A stretch of DNA of 64,000 bases from Fulvivirga lutea (GTDB lineage Bacteria > Bacteroidota > Bacteroidia > Cytophagales > Cyclobacteriaceae), in contig NZ_CP070608.1 of NCBI RefSeq assembly GCF_017068455.1, forward strand, positions 3,515,488-3,579,487, given 5' to 3'. Positions 15,494-29,808 of the stretch are shown in pieces. The notes under the pieces were generated by a model that worked only from the letters and a program-made list of their open reading frames with translations, had not been told where the DNA came from and made no database searches. Made by a program: the position numbers and the translations under genes. Every line of letters starts with the position of its first letter. The first letter of the stretch is position 1.

Positions 15494-16369
15494 ATGAGCC
15501 ATCACCACCATCACCATAGCGGTAATATAAAATTTGCTTTTTTTCTCAACCTGGGGTTCACCATTATTGAAATTGTTGGTGGTATCTTCACTAATAGTAT
15601 GGCCATTTTAGCTGATGCCTTACACGATTTTGGTGATAGTGTTTCATTGGGTACGGCATGGTATTTCGATAATCTTTCTCATAAAAAACGTGATAAAAGC
15701 TATACCTACGGCTATAAACGTTTCTCACTCATTGGAGCAATTGTAAATGCTTTAATACTCCTCACAGGAAGTGTTTTTATAATTTCTGAAACTGTGCCTC
15801 GCCTATTCAATCCGCAAACTCCTGATACTGAAGGGATGATATGGCTTGCTATTTTAGGTGTTATCGTAAATGGACTAGCAGTTTTTAGATTAAAAAAAGG
15901 CCATACCATGAATGAAAAAGTGGTTTACCTTCACCTACTCGAAGATGTATTGGGTTGGATAGCCGTCTTAATAGGAGCTATTATCATGCATTTCTATGAG
16001 TTGCCCATTATTGATCCTTTACTGTCGATAGGAATTTCACTCTTCATATTGTTTAATGTTTTCAAGAGCCTGAAATCTGTATTTGGTATTCTCATGCAAG
16101 GTGTACCACAAGACACGAATACCAAAGAAATCAAAAAATACATCTTATCACTAGAAGGTGTTTTGGAAGTACATGACCTGCACATTTGGAGCATGGATGG
16201 AGATTACAATGTGCTCACTGCTCATGTTGTAATGGAGGGAAAACCTTCCATGGACGACCTCTCTCCTATTAAAAAAGAAATTCATGATAATCTACATAAA
16301 TTTAATATTAACCATGCTACGTTAGAATTTGAAATGGAAGATGAAGAGTGCGTACTCGTGGATTGTTAA
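15494..16369 (+). CDS. Cation diffusion facilitator (zinc/cobalt/cadmium efflux)
   Basis: 291 residues, with six membrane helices starting at NIKFAFFLNLGFTIIEIVGG. The two metal-site motifs are LHDFGDS in helix 2 (HxxxD) and HLLEDVLGW in helix 5 (HxxxD), the zinc-type CDF pattern. A cytoplasmic C-terminal domain (about 205-291) carries LEVHDLHIWSMDG. Family role: proton-coupled export of Zn2+ and similar ions. The N-terminus is MSHHHHHHSG, a natural run of six histidines probably acting as a cytoplasmic metal sensor or loader. Confidence 0.92.
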   Translation: MSHHHHHHSGNIKFAFFLNLGFTIIEIVGGIFTNSMAILADALHDFGDSVSLGTAWYFDNLSHKKRDKSYTYGYKRFSLIGAIVNALILLTGSVFIISETVPRLFNPQTPDTEGMIWLAILGVIVNGLAVFRLKKGHTMNEKVVYLHLLEDVLGWIAVLIGAIIMHFYELPIIDPLLSIGISLFILFNVFKSLKSVFGILMQGVPQDTNTKEIKKYILSLEGVLEVHDLHIWSMDGDYNVLTAHVVMEGKPSMDDLSPIKKEIHDNLHKFNINHATLEFEMEDEECVLVDC

Positions 16370-16409
16370 TGAACATATCTCTAATCATAAGTTTTGCGTA
16401 TATTTAATC

Positions 16410-16631
16410 ATGGATTATCGAAAATTTTTGGAAATCAGGGCTGATAAGCGATTTGGAAAACCATGTATTAAGGGTACCCGAATTTCAGTTTACGATGTAT
16501 TAAACTGGTTGTCTAATGGTATGACCCGTGATGATATAAAATCTGATTTTGAGGAACTAACCGATGAAATGATCGATGCTTGTCTGGCCTACGCAGCGGA
16601 TAAAGAACGAAGGTTGATTACTTTCTCGTGA
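16410..16631 (+). CDS. DUF433 antitoxin-like protein
   Basis: 73 residues from the ATG at 16410 (MDYRKFLEIR); the open frame extends upstream into the CDF gene but has no homology there. DUF433 features are visible: KRFGKPCIKGTRISVYDVLNWL and the C-terminal DEMIDACLAYAADKE helix. These proteins have a VapB-like role, with a HTH-like fold that probably binds its own promoter. The downstream toxin starts at GTG 16628 overlapping its TGA, a classical coupled toxin-antitoxin layout. Confidence 0.85.
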   Translation: MDYRKFLEIRADKRFGKPCIKGTRISVYDVLNWLSNGMTRDDIKSDFEELTDEMIDACLAYAADKERRLITFS

Positions 16632-16969
16632 ACCTTTTATTCGATCAAAACATATCACCTAGAATATTAAAAATTCTACCTCCACAATTTTCAAATTGCG
16701 AACAAGTACGGTTTGTTGGACTTGAAAACTCGTCCGATATTGAAGTTTTCCAATTTGCCAAGAAAAATAACTACGCTGTCGTTACCTTTGATTCTGACTT
16801 TGTAGATCTTAATGCTATGTACGGAACACCTCCTAAAATTGTATATCTTAATACTGGCAACCTCACTACCAAAAATATTTCTGAGCTTCTTCTGAACAAT
16901 ATCATGAGAATTAATCAGTATCTCAGCTCTGATTCAGACGATATTCTCGAACTGATAAAGGCTCATTAA
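16628..16969 (+). CDS. DUF5615 PIN-like toxin
   Basis: 113 residues from a GTG start that overlaps the antitoxin stop (GTGA). The PIN-like acidic residues are visible: Asp6 in LLFDQNIS, the central DIEVFQFAKKNNYAVVTFDSDF with Asp54/Asp56-type residues, and a C-terminal helix. Family knowledge: DUF5615 proteins are predicted VapC-like ribonucleases paired with DUF433. Whether this pair is active is unknown; both frames are intact. Confidence 0.85.
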   Translation: MNLLFDQNISPRILKILPPQFSNCEQVRFVGLENSSDIEVFQFAKKNNYAVVTFDSDFVDLNAMYGTPPKIVYLNTGNLTTKNISELLLNNIMRINQYLSSDSDDILELIKAH

Positions 16970-21349: not shown

Positions 21350-21369
21350 AATATACTATTTACCTTATC

Positions 21370-21463
21370 GTCATTTCGTAGCATAGCAGAGAAATCCCTA
21401 TCAGTAACATAGTATATAAACTTTCTGTGAGGCTAAGATTCCTCCACTTTGTTACGGAATGAC
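21370..21463. repeat. Palindromic intergenic repeat, same family as 13536-13619
   Basis: The 94-bp unit begins GTCATTTCGTAGCATAGCAG and ends CTTTGTTACGGAATGAC, with imperfect inverted ends and internal GAAATCCC/GATTCC motifs. It sits directly after the ABM/GyrI gene, at the left edge of the island. Confidence 0.7.
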
Positions 21464-21481
21464 ACCCAATTATAATTTATC

Positions 21482-21522
21482 ATTGCGGGTTTGCCTGACT
21501 TACTGCTGGCGGGACCCGCAAT
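21482..21522. repeat. GC-rich inverted repeat
   Basis: Perfect 9-bp arms ATTGCGGGT (21482-21490) and ACCCGCAAT (21514-21522) with further GCC/GGC pairing inside. Its GC content is much higher than the surroundings. There is no T-tract, so it is not a typical terminator; it looks like another short dispersed repeat. Confidence 0.55.
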
Positions 21523-21592
21523 ATAATGGATTATAAAAAAGAGATTCCGGCTCAATTCTACCCATAAGGCATAGCAAGCGAACCTCATCTCT

Positions 21593-21795
21593 CACCGCAC
21601 CTAAACAGATGATTTTTATTATTTTAACTCTTAGTAGTATTGAAAAAAACTAAAGACCAATGAGCAGAAAACCTCAAAACGTTAGGTAAAAACCCTCAAA
21701 TACATAGGGTAAAATACCTGATTCTGGTAAAACATGATACAAAGTGTCTTATATTTAGAAAATATGCTCCATGAATGGCGCAAGTACATTTGTTG
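21593..21795 (+). repeat. Island leader repeat R, copy 1
   Basis: A non-coding 203-bp sequence repeated in the same orientation at 24238-24441, differing at about 19 positions. Recognisable parts in order: CACCTAAACAG near the left end; a nested dyad in which TTAGGT and a near-match of ACCTAA enclose ACCCT and AGGGT; a short GCTCCAT/ATGGCGC hairpin; and TACATTTG (21785-21792), a perfect TAnnTTTG -7 box, followed by TTG at the point where the two copies stop matching and cargo begins. It probably carries the promoter for the cargo genes. Upstream of it there is no junction hairpin or addB fragment, so it marks the left edge of the island. Confidence 0.85.
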
Positions 21796-22888: not shown

Positions 22889-23257
22889 TTGTTTCAACCA
22901 ATTTTAGCCATTCTGCTTTCAATTTTGACAGTAATTGTATGCGGACTTGTCGGACTTCCTATCAGACTAAACAACCGAATAAATACTTGGTGGAGAATTC
23001 ATTTCTACGTTCCAATTTTAATCGAATTTTTAGGGTTAGTTGCTTGTGTAATTTCTTTAATGCCAGGATTTGTAGAAGAAGTAACATATCGAATGGACGG
23101 AATGGATACGACTCAAACTGTTCCAAATCAAATCCTTTCTATTTCAGGTTGGTTTTTAATTGCTATTGGAAAATTACATGTTTATCCACCAATAATACTA
23201 GAGCAAAAGTTATTGGTATTATTAAATTCAGTAAAACAGTGTAATTTTAAGACATGA
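22889..23257 (+). CDS. Small membrane protein lacking a proper start (5'-truncated cargo gene)
   Basis: 122 residues if read from the TTG at 22889, with hydrophobic helices at FQPILAILLSILTVIVCGLVGLPI, HFYVPILIEFLGLVACVISLM and ISGWFLIAIGKLHV. The same frame is open back to 22823 and encodes a plausible N-terminus (TWLSERFVHLANFVGLTL) but contains no ATG, GTG or TTG before 22889; a TAA closes it at 22820-22822, inside junction J1. So the start codon seems to have been lost where the junction was joined. The stop TGA overlaps the ATG of the dinD-like gene (ATGA). I do not recognise a named family. Expression is doubtful. Confidence 0.55.
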   Translation: MFQPILAILLSILTVIVCGLVGLPIRLNNRINTWWRIHFYVPILIEFLGLVACVISLMPGFVEEVTYRMDGMDTTQTVPNQILSISGWFLIAIGKLHVYPPIILEQKLLVLLNSVKQCNFKT

Positions 23258-24090
23258 AATCTGACATAATAAAATCACAATAAAACAATTTTGAAGACCA
23301 TTCACAGACGACTGAAAACGGAATTGAGTTTTGGTTTGCAAGAGACATTCAGCATTTATTGGGATATTCTGAATGGCGTAATTTCCAAAAAGTAATAGTT
23401 AAAGCAAAAACTTCTTGCGAAGCCACGGACAATAATATATCAGACCATTTTGTTGACGTCAACAAAATGGTCAAACTTGGCTCAGGAAGTGAAAGAGAGA
23501 TTGAGGATATTATGTTGACAAGATACGCTTGTTATCTAATTGCTCAAAATGGGGACCCAAGAAAGGAGCCAATAGCATTTGCACAGAATTATTTTGCTGT
23601 ACAGACAAGGAAACTTGAAGTAATTGAACAAAGAATAAAAGATTGGGAAAGACTTCAAGCAAGACAAAAATTGACTTTGTCAGAAAAAGAGCTTTCAGAA
23701 TTAATTTATGAAAAAACGGGAAATGACAAAAATTTTGGACTGATAAGAAGTAAAGGCGACCAAGCTCTTTTTGGGAAATCTACTCAGCAAATGAAAAATT
23801 TACTTAGAGTACCAAAAGGCAGGGCTCTCACTGACTTCTTACCAACAATTACAATAAAAGCAAAAGACTTTGCCACAGAGATAACTGTATTTAATACAAA
23901 AGAAAAAGGCTTACGTTCTGAAAGACAAATTTCGGCTGAACACATAACCAACAACAGAGGTGTTAGAGACATTTTATTAAAAAGAGGAATTAAACCAGAA
24001 GAGCTACCCGCTGAAGAGGATATTAAAAAATTGGAAAGACGTGTAACTTCTGAACCAAAAAAAATCTTGGGAAAAATCCTGATAAATTGA
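23254..24090 (+). pseudogene. dinD: DinD-like (BRO-type) gene with early in-frame stop
   Basis: The frame starts at ATG 23254 (MKSDIIKSQ), meets TAA at 23281-23283, then continues openly to 24090. The part just after the stop (NFEDHSQTTENGIEFWFARD) already matches the DinD N-terminal pattern, followed by IQHLLGYSEWRNFQKVI, DHFVDVNKMVKLGSGSER, MLTRYACYLIAQNGDP and FAQNYFAVQTRK. Family knowledge: E. coli DinD is an SOS-induced inhibitor of RecA filament pairing, about 275 residues. Here it is either inactivated, expressed from a non-canonical start after the stop, or affected by a sequencing error. The first usable alternative start is TTG 23359, which would lose about 25 conserved residues. 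Cargo of the first unit. Confidence 0.7.
23443..23472. repeat. Perfect 30-bp palindrome inside the dinD-like frame
   Basis: Each 15-base half is an exact reverse complement of the other (left half GACCATTTTGTTGAC, centre GACGTC). It lies over the codons for DHFVDVNKMV. It can form a cruciform or RNA hairpin or bind a symmetric protein. Confidence 0.85.
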
Positions 24091-24102
24091 AATAAAAAAC
24101 GA

Positions 24103-24158
24103 CACCACAACAATCGCTATAAAAACATGCCCTTCGGGACGCGTTTCATATCGGGAAC
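24103..24158 (+). repeat. Cassette junction hairpin J2 (attC-like)
   Basis: It begins CACCACAACAATCGCTAT, 12 bases after the dinD-like stop, and folds into an imperfect hairpin: 24114-24132 pairs with 24136-24155 around the loop TTC (CG-TAT-AAAC-CCC against GGG-GTTT-ATA-CG, with bulges). It ends GGGAAC, and the very next bases are the addB tail fragment. J3 has the same order of parts, ends GAGAACC, and runs into intact addB. The 56-bp size and bulged palindrome recall integron attC sites, but the attC core consensus is not matched. Confidence 0.6.
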
Positions 24159-24233
24159 GTCACCCCCTCCCACAAATCCCAACATAAGGACAGTACTCAC
24201 AAACCTTCTTATCTTCTACCTGATCCAAGGGTA
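24158..24233 (-). pseudogene. Duplicated 3' tail of the AddB-like gene
   Basis: 76 bp identical to 26924-26999 except at four positions. Read on the minus strand it encodes the last 22-24 residues of the AddB-like protein in frame, including CEYCPYVGICGRG and the TGA; two residue changes are seen (Phe to Leu, Glu to Lys). Nothing of the gene beyond this remains, and leader repeat R2 starts four bases later. The four differences mean it is either an old copy or came from a related strain. Confidence 0.85.
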
Positions 24234-24237
24234 TCCC

Positions 24238-24441
24238 CACCCCACCTAAACAGGTGATTTTTATTATTTTAACTCTTAGTAGCATTGAAAAAAAAGTAAA
24301 GACCACTGAGCAGAAAAGCCCAAAACGTTAGGTAAAAACCCTCAAATGCATAGGGTAAAACACCTAATTCTGGTAAAACATGCTACAAAGTGTCTTATAT
24401 TTAGAAAATAGGCGCCAAGAATAGTGCATATACATTTGTTG
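24238..24441 (+). repeat. Island leader repeat R, copy 2
   Basis: 204 bp, about nine in ten positions equal to copy 1 (21593-21795). It begins CACCCCACCTAAACAGGTG, where CACCT-AAAC-AGGTG is a perfect small palindrome that copy 1 has lost. Here the nested dyad is exact (TTAGGT...ACCCT...AGGGT...ACCTAA, 24337-24376 region). It ends with the -7-like box TACATTTG (24431-24438) and TTG, 40 bases before the PHP/ATPase start. Non-coding in all frames. Confidence 0.85.
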
Positions 24442-24480: not shown

Positions 24481-26499
24481 ATGAAAAAAATAGACCTTCA
24501 TACACATACTATTTCGACAATTAGCGACTATCCTTTTGACTTTGACCTTTCAAAAGTCAAAGAGTATGTTGACAAGTTGAAAATTGATGCTCTAGCTATC
24601 ACGAATCACAATGTTTTTGACTTAGCGCAATATTTACATATTAAAAACAACCTGACAATTACCGTTTTCCCAGGTATTGAAGTCGACTTAGAAGGCGGTC
24701 ATCTTTTGGTAATAACTGATTCAGACGAATTTGAAATCTCAAACTTTGACGAAAAATGCAAGCAAGTTACTGCTTTAATTAAAACAAATACTGACACACT
24801 TACAATTGCACAATTCAAAAGCATTTTTACCGAGCTTCACAAATACATTCTTATTCCGCATTACGACAAAAGTCCAGAAATAAAGAAAGCAACAATAGCG
24901 GATTTGCAACCTCATATTACATCAGGCGAAGTAGCTAGTATCCCAAAATTCAAAAGAATGATGAAAGAACAGAACGGGCTTACGCCCGTCCTGTTTAGTG
25001 ATATGCGTTTTAGTAGTAGCTTAGTTGACTTTCCGACAAGGCACACATTTGTTGATCTTAAAGAAATTTCCATAGCAGGAATTAAATCGTGTTTTGCAGA
25101 CAAAACAAAAATCTCACTAACAAAAGAAAGTGGTAACAATTTTTTTCAAGCCACCGATGATGGTTTAGAGTTATCAACTGGTTTAAATATTATTTTGGGT
25201 GGTCGTTCTTCTGGTAAAACGGTTACTCTTGATAAAATAGCTGCATCATCGGGAAGTGCTAAATACATTAGACAATTCTCACTTCTTCAAAATGATGAAG
25301 AAACTTTTAATAGGACAAACGACACTAAACTAAGTATTGTGAATAACAATTATTTAACTGAGTTTAAATCGGTTGTTGAAGATGTTGTTCAAATTGACCT
25401 TAAACAAAACTTGCTGAGTATAGAAAGCTATTTAGAGTCACTTAAAAAATTTGCAACTGAGAGTGAGAAAAAAGACTTATACTCGAAATGCTTGTTATTT
25501 AGTGAAGAATTATTTTCATTAGAAGATTTCAAAAATCTTGATAAGCTTATTGAATCTGTAACGACACTTATTGAAAACAACGAGTATCAAGACATAATAG
25601 CCAAATACATCTCGCAAGAAAACCTGAAAGGGCTATTGAATGAGCTAATCCAAAAAGCTGTAATTTCAAAAGTTGAGAGCGAACAAAAAAAATGGTTGAA
25701 CTCAATCATTAACGATGTTCAACGTGAATTGAGAGTTAAAACCACTAGCACTTTCATTGAAAATGTTGATTTTTATAAAATCGCAACGGATGAAATGAAA
25801 GTGGCAAAATTCAATCAAGTAGTTTCTGAGCTTAAAAAACCAAGAAATATACATCGAGAAGAATTAGGTAAATTTTCAATAATTACAACCGCAAAGCCAC
25901 TTGAAAGTGCTTCAGATTTGCAAAAAATTGGTCGAGACAAAAAAATATATAGCACAGCACTTAGTAAGTATAATGAGCCATATTCCTATATTCAAAAACT
26001 AAGAGAGACAGGTGTTGAAGATGCAAATCTCTACAAGTTCTTCGTAAAAATTGAATCCGTTACTTTAAATAAGGACGGATTTAAAGTGTCAGGTGGTGAG
26101 CGTTCTGAATTTAACTTAATCCACGAAATAAAGGACGCTACCAAATATGATATTCTGCTAATTGATGAGCCTGAATCTTCTTTTGACAATTTATTTCTAA
26201 GAAAAGAAATAAATTGTCTAATTAAGGATATGGCACAACTAATGCCAGTTGTAGTAGTTACACACAATAGCACTGTTGGGGCATCAATAAAACCAAATTT
26301 TGTTGCAATCACTCATAAAAACCTTGAAGACGGAGAATTTGTCTATCGCATATTTACAGGTTATCCATCGGATAAAGAATTGACTTGTACTGACGGAACA
26401 AAAATTAAAAATTATGAAGCAATTCTTAACTGTTTAGAAGCTGGTGAAGATGCTTACACTGAACGTAAAACTCAAACTTATGAAATACTTAAAGATTGA
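24481..26499 (+). CDS. PHP-phosphoesterase/ABC-type ATPase fusion (TrlF-like), candidate defence protein
   Basis: 672 residues. The N-terminal PHP domain (about 1-200) has metal-binding motifs DLHTHT (His7, His9), TNHN (His43), the Glu/His of PGIEVDLEGGH (His74), IPHY (His127) and FSDMR (Asp174). An SMC/ABC-type ATPase follows: Walker A GGRSSGKT at about 240-247, a long coiled helical middle, signature VSGGERSEF near 536, and Walker B ILLIDEPESSFDN near 560. PHP plus ATPase proteins of the TrlF kind are found in accessory islands and are suspected nucleases or nucleotide phosphoesterases controlled by ATP and nucleic acid. It is shorter than many TrlF proteins. The start follows leader R2; the small partner gene overlaps its end. 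Confidence 0.85.
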   Translation: MKKIDLHTHTISTISDYPFDFDLSKVKEYVDKLKIDALAITNHNVFDLAQYLHIKNNLTITVFPGIEVDLEGGHLLVITDSDEFEISNFDEKCKQVTALIKTNTDTLTIAQFKSIFTELHKYILIPHYDKSPEIKKATIADLQPHITSGEVASIPKFKRMMKEQNGLTPVLFSDMRFSSSLVDFPTRHTFVDLKEISIAGIKSCFADKTKISLTKESGNNFFQATDDGLELSTGLNIILGGRSSGKTVTLDKIAASSGSAKYIRQFSLLQNDEETFNRTNDTKLSIVNNNYLTEFKSVVEDVVQIDLKQNLLSIESYLESLKKFATESEKKDLYSKCLLFSEELFSLEDFKNLDKLIESVTTLIENNEYQDIIAKYISQENLKGLLNELIQKAVISKVESEQKKWLNSIINDVQRELRVKTTSTFIENVDFYKIATDEMKVAKFNQVVSELKKPRNIHREELGKFSIITTAKPLESASDLQKIGRDKKIYSTALSKYNEPYSYIQKLRETGVEDANLYKFFVKIESVTLNKDGFKVSGGERSEFNLIHEIKDATKYDILLIDEPESSFDNLFLRKEINCLIKDMAQLMPVVVVTHNSTVGASIKPNFVAITHKNLEDGEFVYRIFTGYPSDKELTCTDGTKIKNYEAILNCLEAGEDAYTERKTQTYEILKD

Positions 26500-26779
26500 A
26501 AATAATAAGGGTTTATATCGACTTGACACAACACAAGATATTTGGACAGACCTTGACCAAATCAACAAAGAACATTTATTGGATTTGCTGAAATTTGCAT
26601 CAACAGGTGAATTTGAAATGGACGAGTATAAAGATCAACTACTTCAAAATCCTGCGCATAATATCATTTACAAAAACATTTATGGCAAGTTCAATGACTT
26701 TTTAAAAAACAAGACAAGGTTTCAGGATAGTGCTGAGTCAACTTATAAACAAGCGATTGAAAAGTACCAATTACAATGA
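26480..26779 (+). CDS. Small partner protein of the PHP/ATPase, unknown family
   Basis: 99 residues from the ATG at 26480 (MKYLKIENNKGLYRLD), overlapping the upstream gene by 20 bases; the frame extends to an ATG at 26444, but the internal start gives the more natural N-terminus. The protein is charged, mostly helical (QINKEHLLDLLKFASTGEFEMDEYKDQLL, KAIEKYQLQ-like end) and has no signal or membrane segment. No family recognised. The overlap indicates co-expression, and it may regulate or complete the ATPase complex (inference). Confidence 0.75.
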   Translation: MKYLKIENNKGLYRLDTTQDIWTDLDQINKEHLLDLLKFASTGEFEMDEYKDQLLQNPAHNIIYKNIYGKFNDFLKNKTRFQDSAESTYKQAIEKYQLQ

Positions 26780-26796
26780 CAGACAAGAAAGCCGAA

Positions 26797-26923
26797 CACA
26801 CAACATCACCTATGCGAAAGCAGGGGTTTCTTGCTTCGTAGGACAAGGAAGTGGTAAATTTAAAGATCAGTTCTTCGTAGTAAGTTGAGTGGTAAAAATT
26901 CTAGCCTGCGTATAGCTGAGAAC
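26797..26923 (+). repeat. Cassette junction J3 (attC-like nested inverted repeat)
   Basis: It begins CACACAACATCACCTATGCG, 17 bases after the partner gene, and ends TGCGTATAGCTGAGAACC just before the addB tail. The outer arms TCACCTATGCG (26806-26816) and its inverted near-copy (26907-26919) match at 9 of 11 positions. An inner pair CGAAAGCA/TGCTTCG adds a second stem. Length 127 bp. Parts occur in the same order as J2. Confidence 0.6.
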
Positions 26924-26925
26924 CG

Positions 26926-29808
26926 TCACCCCCTCCCACAAATCCCAACATACGGACAGTACTCACAAACTTTCTCATCTTCTACCTGATCAAAGGGTAC
27001 TTCGGTACTGTAGATTTCTGTAAGGGTTTCTAACAAAAAATCTTCATACTCCTGCGCTAATGGACGGAAGTCGCTCAAGGGAACGCCTTGTTTGCGTGGT
27101 TCACGCTGGTTTACGCGCCAGTCAAAGTCTTTATTAAACAGGTCTTTGCTATTGAAGATGCCCGGCTCTATCACATGCTCATTACCAAATTTCTTCCAAT
27201 ACAGATAGCTGTAATAGAATACCTGCAGAGCGGTCTTATTCTTTAAAATCTTATCTCGGTTTTTCAGGTCGTCAATGGAAACATATTCCTTTTCATCCTT
27301 ACCCGTTTTATAATCAATCACACGCACCTTGCCATCCTTAAGGTCAATACGGTCAATAATTCCTTTAATACGCACATCTACCAATTGCTCACCACAGATT
27401 ACTGGCAGCTCCAAATAGTAGCCCTCCTCTGTACTGGCTTCTAATCCAAGAATTTTAAAAGGTGCGTATTGTTTATCATGCTTCAATATCTGATACGCAA
27501 ACTTCTTCAATATCTCCTCAGCAATCAGCGTACGGCCTTCCAGTTTAAATTCCTCTTTTTCTTTTACATGATAGTGTTTTTTAAATGCCTGCTTCAAGGC
27601 TCCTTCTACCCCACCTTCTAAAGCGAGAAAATCCGTTTCCTGAACCACATCTCTCTTTTCTCTTTTCTTAAAATCCTTGTACAGGATTTCCATCGTATTA
27701 TGGAGGATATTACCAAAAATGGCGGCATCCATTTCTTCCTGTACCTCATCAGCTTCATACAGCTTGGCTACATACTTAAAGTAAAATTTAAGTCGGCAAG
27801 TGAGGTAGGCAATCAAAGCAGAAGGTGTAATCCTCGGTGGCTTCTCTTCTTTGTTGAGTGAAGTAAACCGCTCCATTCGCTTCAGCACCTCCGGTGTTTT
27901 GTGAATGGTAATGTCCTGCAGAGTCTGCGTTTTAACAGGATTGGATAATAGCTTGCGCTCAATAGTGTGATTAGATTCTACTTCCAACTGTCGTACAAAA
28001 CGACTGATCTCACCATTGATATTAAACTCAGAAACAGTGTTGTAATAGAAATGCACCTCATTCACGCGTTGTAGTAATCTGTAAAACAGATAGGCATACA
28101 TGGCGTCATTATTCTCAAACACTGGAAGATCAAAAGCTTTACGAATATTGTAAGGCACAAATGAACCTCGTCTTGGCTGAGCAGGCCAGCTGCCTTCGTT
28201 CATATTCAACACATACACTCGCTCAAAATCGAGGTTACGTGTCTCCAATATTCCCATCACCTGTAATCCATCTAATGGCTCACCAGTAAATGGTACTTTA
28301 AAACTTCTGGCTAGTCGCTTGAAAAGTGCTGTAAAGAATTCATAATTCAAAGTTTCTGCTTTATCACCAATCATGCGCTCAAGCTGCTGCATTTGCTCAT
28401 AAAACCTACTCACAAACTCTACTTCCAGCTCTCGATCCTTCTCCTGCCAGGAGTCATACAATCCTTTTAAAATCGTAATGAGGTATTCCAGTGGGTTATC
28501 AGCTTTTTGAAATATTTGCTGTAGCAGTGGATCTTGAAAATCAAAATTCTCCGCTGGTAGCATGATTCTATTCTTGCCTTTGATTTCTCCGAGTAGCTCT
28601 AATGCCTTTTCTTCCTCCAGAGAGTGGAGCAATGGGTGCAACAACAGCTCCTGCACAGGTCTGTGATAGAAGCTCACTCCTTTGATTTGACTTTCCTTTC
28701 TTAGTCGCTGCAAGTCCAGCGCACTTTCCAACAAACTATAAACGGAAGTATCCTTCAGAGGATAGCCCATCGTAATGTTTACTTTTTCAATCTCATCTGG
28801 GATGCTGTGCAGTACCGGAAACATCATATGTTCCTGCGGCAGCACCACCACCGTTTTACTGGGATCAAAATCTGGTTCCTTAGCTATTCTTGCCAGCTCC
28901 TCACCCAATGCCTTGGCTTGTCCTACTTCTAGTGACACGCCTGTGGCTGTCATCTGCTTTTCTGAAGCAATCAACTCAGGCGCTTCTTTTGGGAAGGATC
29001 TGCCCAGCAAGGTGTCCTTTGCATAGGCTCTTAAAAACGTGCCTGCCTCCTGCTGTGGTGAACTGAAATAATAGGCATCAACATCCCAGACAATTTCGGC
29101 ATTACACTCTCGAACGAAATATTTGAAAATAACTTCTTCCGTTTTTGTCAGAGCGTTGAAACCTGCAAAGTAGACCTTATAATTTGTTTTGATTTTTTCC
29201 TCCTCGAGTCTTTCAGCAATATCCCGATAGATCATCCCGCCAAAGCCTCTACCCTGTTGTCTGAGTCTTTGCTTAAAGCCTTCGTACAATGGCAATAGTA
29301 TTCTCCACGTTTCAAGAAAGAGCTTTTGTGTTTGTGTGGTATCAGGCAAAAAGCTACTCCAGAACGATTGGATAATGGCTTTATCCTCTTCATCTAAAAA
29401 GTAAAAAGCTTCATCGAGCTCTTTTTGTGTTTTAATGCCTGTAAAGAGATGTTTTGTATCCACCATGTACTGGTCGATCTCCTCAAAATCACGAAGGATC
29501 ATTTCACCCCAGAAGAAAAACCGATCGAAAGTCTCATTCTTATTCTGAACCTCTTTATACACCTCATAAAGCTCAAATATCGCTTCCAGAGTTTCGATCT
29601 TTTCAAGATCGCTGTATTGCATTAGGTAGTCTTCCAGACTAAATACTTCAGGCATAAATACCGGCTGATCGATGAGTTTCGCTAGCTCCTTACGAAAGAA
29701 TAACCCGGCCCTGCGGTTCGGAAAAATGACAATGACATCTTCCAAAGCCTCATTTTCAGCTTTCACCTTTTCAGCAATCTCCGCTATGAATGTCTTGTGT
29801 TTTGTCAA
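26926..29808 (-). CDS. AddB-like PD-(D/E)XK nuclease of the double-strand-break end-processing complex
   Basis: 960 residues. The N-terminal inactivated-helicase part (EDVIVIFPNRRAGLFFRKEL) and middle (LQVMGILETRNLDFERVYVLNMNEG) are typical of AddB. The C-terminal PD-(D/E)XK nuclease shows VIDYKTG near residues 828-834 and the Fe-S cysteines: one in YLTCRLKFYF near 671 and Cys948, Cys951 and Cys957 at the very end. Together with the AddA-like helicase transcribed just before it, it should resect DNA ends for RecA loading. Its last 76 bp are also present as a fragment at 24158-24233, and its stop codon is where the island begins. No insertion damages the gene itself. Confidence 0.88.
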   Translation of the reverse strand: MTKHKTFIAEIAEKVKAENEALEDVIVIFPNRRAGLFFRKELAKLIDQPVFMPEVFSLEDYLMQYSDLEKIETLEAIFELYEVYKEVQNKNETFDRFFFWGEMILRDFEEIDQYMVDTKHLFTGIKTQKELDEAFYFLDEEDKAIIQSFWSSFLPDTTQTQKLFLETWRILLPLYEGFKQRLRQQGRGFGGMIYRDIAERLEEEKIKTNYKVYFAGFNALTKTEEVIFKYFVRECNAEIVWDVDAYYFSSPQQEAGTFLRAYAKDTLLGRSFPKEAPELIASEKQMTATGVSLEVGQAKALGEELARIAKEPDFDPSKTVVVLPQEHMMFPVLHSIPDEIEKVNITMGYPLKDTSVYSLLESALDLQRLRKESQIKGVSFYHRPVQELLLHPLLHSLEEEKALELLGEIKGKNRIMLPAENFDFQDPLLQQIFQKADNPLEYLITILKGLYDSWQEKDRELEVEFVSRFYEQMQQLERMIGDKAETLNYEFFTALFKRLARSFKVPFTGEPLDGLQVMGILETRNLDFERVYVLNMNEGSWPAQPRRGSFVPYNIRKAFDLPVFENNDAMYAYLFYRLLQRVNEVHFYYNTVSEFNINGEISRFVRQLEVESNHTIERKLLSNPVKTQTLQDITIHKTPEVLKRMERFTSLNKEEKPPRITPSALIAYLTCRLKFYFKYVAKLYEADEVQEEMDAAIFGNILHNTMEILYKDFKKREKRDVVQETDFLALEGGVEGALKQAFKKHYHVKEKEEFKLEGRTLIAEEILKKFAYQILKHDKQYAPFKILGLEASTEEGYYLELPVICGEQLVDVRIKGIIDRIDLKDGKVRVIDYKTGKDEKEYVSIDDLKNRDKILKNKTALQVFYYSYLYWKKFGNEHVIEPGIFNSKDLFNKDFDWRVNQREPRKQGVPLSDFRPLAQEYEDFLLETLTEIYSTEVPFDQVEDEKVCEYCPYVGICGRG

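Follow-up and report, generated by a model that had tools for sequence, protein, structure and literature searches.

Integrative elements use the 3' ends of genes as attachment sites (attB of the tRNA, guaA, rpsI and prfC type), and arrays of displaced orphan gene ends are familiar from the cdiA-CT and rhs tips. Hotspots that carry no integrase and swap their cargo by recombination at flanking core genes, with a tendency to adjoin repair genes, have also been documented (Oliveira et al. 2017, PMC5635113). The locus described here lies downstream of addB in Fulvivirga lutea, in a window of 64,000 nucleotides (the whole stretch of DNA that was analysed). As in the recombination-driven hotspots flanked by core genes, strain-specific cargo is found beside a core DNA-repair gene without any integrase, and the cargo differs between units that have the same flanks; unlike in those hotspots, the flank itself is tandem-duplicated here and two cargos are located on one chromosome. 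The locus shares with gene-end attB elements a direct repeat of a 3' end with the gene intact, variable cargo between the copies and a tandem arrangement, whereas it differs from them in the absence of a recombinase among the unit genes, in the lack of a third copy of the gene end at the far boundary and in the presence of an extra 203-bp repeat at the other edge. Furthermore, as in the cdiA-CT and rhs arrays, a displaced 3' fragment and the old neighbour gene lie downstream of the intact gene, although addB encodes no polymorphic toxin and the fragment, with just 71 coding bases, has no known activity.

Alignment of the minus-strand segments 24158-24233 and 26924-26999 gives identity at 72 of 76 bases, the four mismatches being located at 24187/26953, 24205/26971, 24210/26976 and 24226/26992. 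When the complete genome (4,137,993 bp in one contig) is searched, the 76-bp addB end is recovered at two places only, with E values of 9e-34 for itself and 2.4e-28 for the copy, which places the match far beyond chance. The addB-frame translation is PLDQVEDKKVCEYCPYVGICGRG for the copy and PFDQVEDEKVCEYCPYVGICGRG for the native end, in each case followed by the stop. Two of the mismatches replace a residue (F by L, E by K) and two are silent, and the copy contains both the stop codon and the C-x2-C-x5-C cysteines known from the iron-sulfur cluster at the AddB C-terminus. The preliminary description of this segment, as a duplicate of the addB end including stop codon and cysteines that differs at four positions, keeps the addB frame and changes two residues, agrees exactly with the alignment; it also placed the beginning of the match correctly at CGTCACC just outside the TGA, that is, two bases past it.

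The addB-end copy is located 4 bp from a second direct repeat, A/A', and is therefore one half of a two-part tandem structure (Table 1); A/A', the other half of the pattern, had been missed in the preliminary description. A and A' show 19 differences over 204 alignment columns (9% divergence). The order of genes and repeats is A, cargo 1, addB-end copy, A', cargo 2, addB end, addB and addA, the copy being the right edge of unit 1 and adjoining the left edge of unit 2. Both direct repeats appear in the same order in both units, with a spacing of 2645/2646 for A/A' and of 2766 for the addB ends. The two unrelated cargos have almost identical boundaries, just after A on one side and 2 bp past the addB stop on the other, and no significant homology was detected beyond the repeat ends at the boundaries of either cargo. 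The stretches leading from cargo to addB end (24091-24157 and 26780-26923) have a GC content of 42%, above that of the cargo, and are faintly alike near the boundary (p 0.09). Full-length A occurs at these two places only in this genome and was not found in 14 congeneric genomes or in 295 family genomes; the matches in the latter, of just 20-65 bp with E values of 1e-4 to 6e-3 per genome, were taken as chance. A known RNA family at A and a tRNA as target were also considered and set aside, as Rfam gave no match at A and the window contains no tRNA.

Table 1. Features of the two-unit locus downstream of addB.
Feature	Position	Strand	Evidence
Non-coding 203-bp repeat A at the left edge of unit 1, preceding cargo 1	21593..21795	+	91% identity to A'
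Cargo 1, MBL-fold metallo-hydrolase, 274 aa	21854..22678	+	PF00753 E 2.8e-17
Cargo 1, DinD-like gene, PADLOC candidate PDC-S13, Bro-N	23254..24090	+	PRK11525 E 6.4e-94; PDC-S13 E 9.5e-102
Dead copy of addB 3' end (last 71 bp coding, TGA, 2 bp beyond)	24158..24233	-	72/76 identity
TCCC, 4 bp between addB-end copy and A', novel joint of the tandem structure	24234..24237	.	No significant homology beyond repeat ends
Non-coding repeat A' at the left edge of unit 2, preceding cargo 2	24238..24441	+	91% identity to A
Cargo 2, PDC-M49A (candidate defence), PHP/ATPase protein of 672 aa	24481..26499	+	PDC-M49A E 3e-283
Cargo 2, PDC-M49B partner, 99 aa from ATG at 26480	26480..26779	+	PDC-M49B E 1e-35 (scored on the longer frame from 26444)
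Native addB 3' end, source sequence of the repeat	26924..26999	-	72/76 identity
addB, intact, 960 aa, AddB-type exonuclease subunit, PDDEXK_1	26926..29808	-	Orthologues in 15/15 genus genomes

Both units carry imported genes that are probably anti-phage; the PDC families of PADLOC are themselves candidates, and the defence role of the cargo is putative. The GC content amounts to 31-34% in the cargo, 41.7% in addB and 37.6% in the window. In the DinD-like gene of unit 1 there is an in-frame stop at codon 10, and translation gives an open frame from 23359 without the first 35 residues; the matches of the protein to PRK11525 and PDC-S13 both enter the profile at position 36. The gene is thus truncated or decayed. 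Unit 1 also contains an orphan open frame of 122 aa (22889-23257), membrane-protein-like by eye and with no match in Pfam, PADLOC or NCBIfam. The M49A gene of unit 2 is rare and patchy, being present in 5 of 295 family genomes; the other four copies show 46-72% identity and lie in other surroundings, and the M49A/B pair is conserved in the other genomes bearing M49A. In the three of those four genomes in which the upstream DNA could be compared, no A-like sequence precedes M49A; A is therefore a property of the locus and not of the cargo, and the possibility that it travels with the PDC-M49 system was discarded. Scans with Pfam, PADLOC and NCBIfam identified no recombinase among the unit genes, the 2.7-kb unit between the addB ends included, and the cargo-end sequences are not repeated elsewhere in the genome.

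A (21681-21726) and A' (24327-24372) each contain the 15-mer GTTAGGTAAAAACCC, followed by a similar second box about 22 bp on. The same 15-mer is found at C1:1958832-1958868 (L047:1501-1537), where a near-identical second copy follows after 22 bp; it precedes by about 140 bp a DUF7149/DUF7814 gene, which probably encodes a restriction-modification enzyme. Six occurrences of the 15-mer were counted in the 295 family genomes, three of them here and two, among the rest, within coding sequence; the box is possibly an operator common to defence genes. Elsewhere in the window, a DUF433/DUF5615 pair (16329-16969) resembles a toxin-antitoxin module.

The differences between the two addB ends bear on how old the copy is and where it came from. 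Whereas 40 of 41 other Bacteroidota AddB tails have Phe at one of these sites, the copy carries Leu, a replacement that fits a loss of constraint after duplication, and at the E/K site the nearest relatives carry G, like the native addB; in both cases the copy seems to hold the derived residue. One silent site (AAG) is common to the copy and the nearest relatives and differs in the native addB, the other silent site being ambiguous. Identity of the copy is 95% to the local addB and 81% over 63 bp to G005, the only relative with a DNA match, with one genome per species compared. By these comparisons the copy appears to be a decayed local-type addB end. Of the earlier interpretation, a true copy of the gene end that is either old or derived from a diverged allele is supported, whereas a closer relationship to the addB of another genome was not borne out among the relatives compared.

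No duplicated addB end was found in 14 congeneric loci or in the loci of 41 named relatives with up to 8 kb downstream, the addB loci of these relatives being all at least 20% diverged in AddB protein. Other genes lie downstream of addB in the relatives, and the conserved left-flank pair WYL/ABM is not near addB there; consequently the ancestral empty site is not recoverable, and neither an empty site nor a single-unit allele was found in them. To the left of A (21350-21592) no significant match to the addB end was detected, the best alignment having p 0.16-0.21. A weak colinear similarity to the addB end at 21392-21427 (same p range) was not counted as a further relic; if genuine, it would mark a third and older scar.

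We propose that the 76 bp were, rather likely, left as a scar when a variable defence slot on the downstream side of addB was doubled head-to-tail, and that the cargo between its flanks was exchanged. The ancestral slot would have consisted of A (203 bp, promoter-like), cargo and the addB end. A tandem duplication, or the single-crossover integration of a circularised conspecific slot, would then have taken place with the right-hand break 71 bp inside addB, as a result of which the left unit would keep the gene end only and the right unit the whole addB. Doubling of the segment from A to the break inside addB yields exactly the observed map, and a single new joint (24233/24238) would be needed. 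Since the cargos differ, cargo would have been exchanged before or after the doubling, presumably through homologous recombination at the two flanks, A and the addB end, and the left addB end would have lost its function and subsequently drifted. The AT-rich cargo, the patchy distribution of M49A, the interrupted DinD in the left unit and the absence of a recombinase among the unit genes favour such a doubling and exchange slot, and the MBL/DinD and PDC-M49 cargos occupy the same A/addB-end flanks without mobile-element genes. Against the doubling, the shared cargo boundaries are sharper than random recombination needs, the repeats, at 5% and 9% divergence, differ more than would be expected of a recent duplication, and the relatives compared yielded no empty site or single-unit allele. 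The coincidence of the cargo boundaries at the same bases, without homology beyond them, leaves room for a site-specific step.

An imported allele is an unlikely alternative, in which unit 1 or unit 2 would have arrived on DNA of a sister species with a diverged addB end and A, joined through one crossover located in either of these; the divergence of 5-9% would then be that of the donor and not a measure of age. The divergence of both repeats and the agreement between the copy and the nearest relatives at the silent AAG site are in its favour; however, the local addB resembles the copy far more than that of G005 does, and the F to L change is unseen in 41 other AddB tails, so that the copy seems not to be a functional donor allele. 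We consider about equally doubtful the reading of each unit as a small, non-autonomous element that has A as its left end and brings its own addB end, which rebuilds the gene on insertion and displaces the old end, the recombinase acting in trans. Such integration at the addB 3' end would account for the precise boundaries common to two unrelated cargos, for the AT-rich cargo and for the direct repeat of the gene end (72/76, with addB open over 960 aa), and tandem accretion is typical of gene-end integration sites. On the other hand, the unit genes include no recombinase, a displaced addB end is present only between the units and not left of A, and A/A' and the addB ends occur nowhere else in the genome, nor as repeats at the addB of relatives. 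Moreover, a simple duplication of a target at the gene end does not account for the A/A' repeat. Given these absences and 14 congeneric loci without a copy, there is no support for an integrase that targets the addB end. The preliminary interpretation stands as regards a real, decayed scar, and is unsupported as regards an integrating element aimed at the gene end.

It seems very improbable that the cargo is exchanged precisely between A, as a regulated promoter with paired GGTAAAAACC-type boxes forming the wall of the slot, and the addB stop, through a site-specific or templated process that would be integron-like without integron parts. The cargo ends resemble attC sites or integron cassette ends by eye, but their sequences fold no better than shuffles (z of 1.22, 0.54 and -0.63), and this identification was dropped. 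A collapsed or chimeric assembly joint is extremely unlikely, because the genome is a single contig (99.82% complete) and both repeats are diverged (5% and 9%), unlike in a chimeric joining of identical reads.

Under the doubling and exchange that we favour, the locus is a real but fairly ordinary trace of defence-gene stacking in bacteria, and by itself it leaves the general picture unchanged. The process is of a documented kind, of which the locus is a tidy tandem example. It represents a readable scar in which two putative anti-phage cargos stand in tandem beside a repair gene, without recognisable mobile-element machinery, and it provides testable breakpoints for the stacking of defence genes by recombination in a lineage of Bacteroidota.
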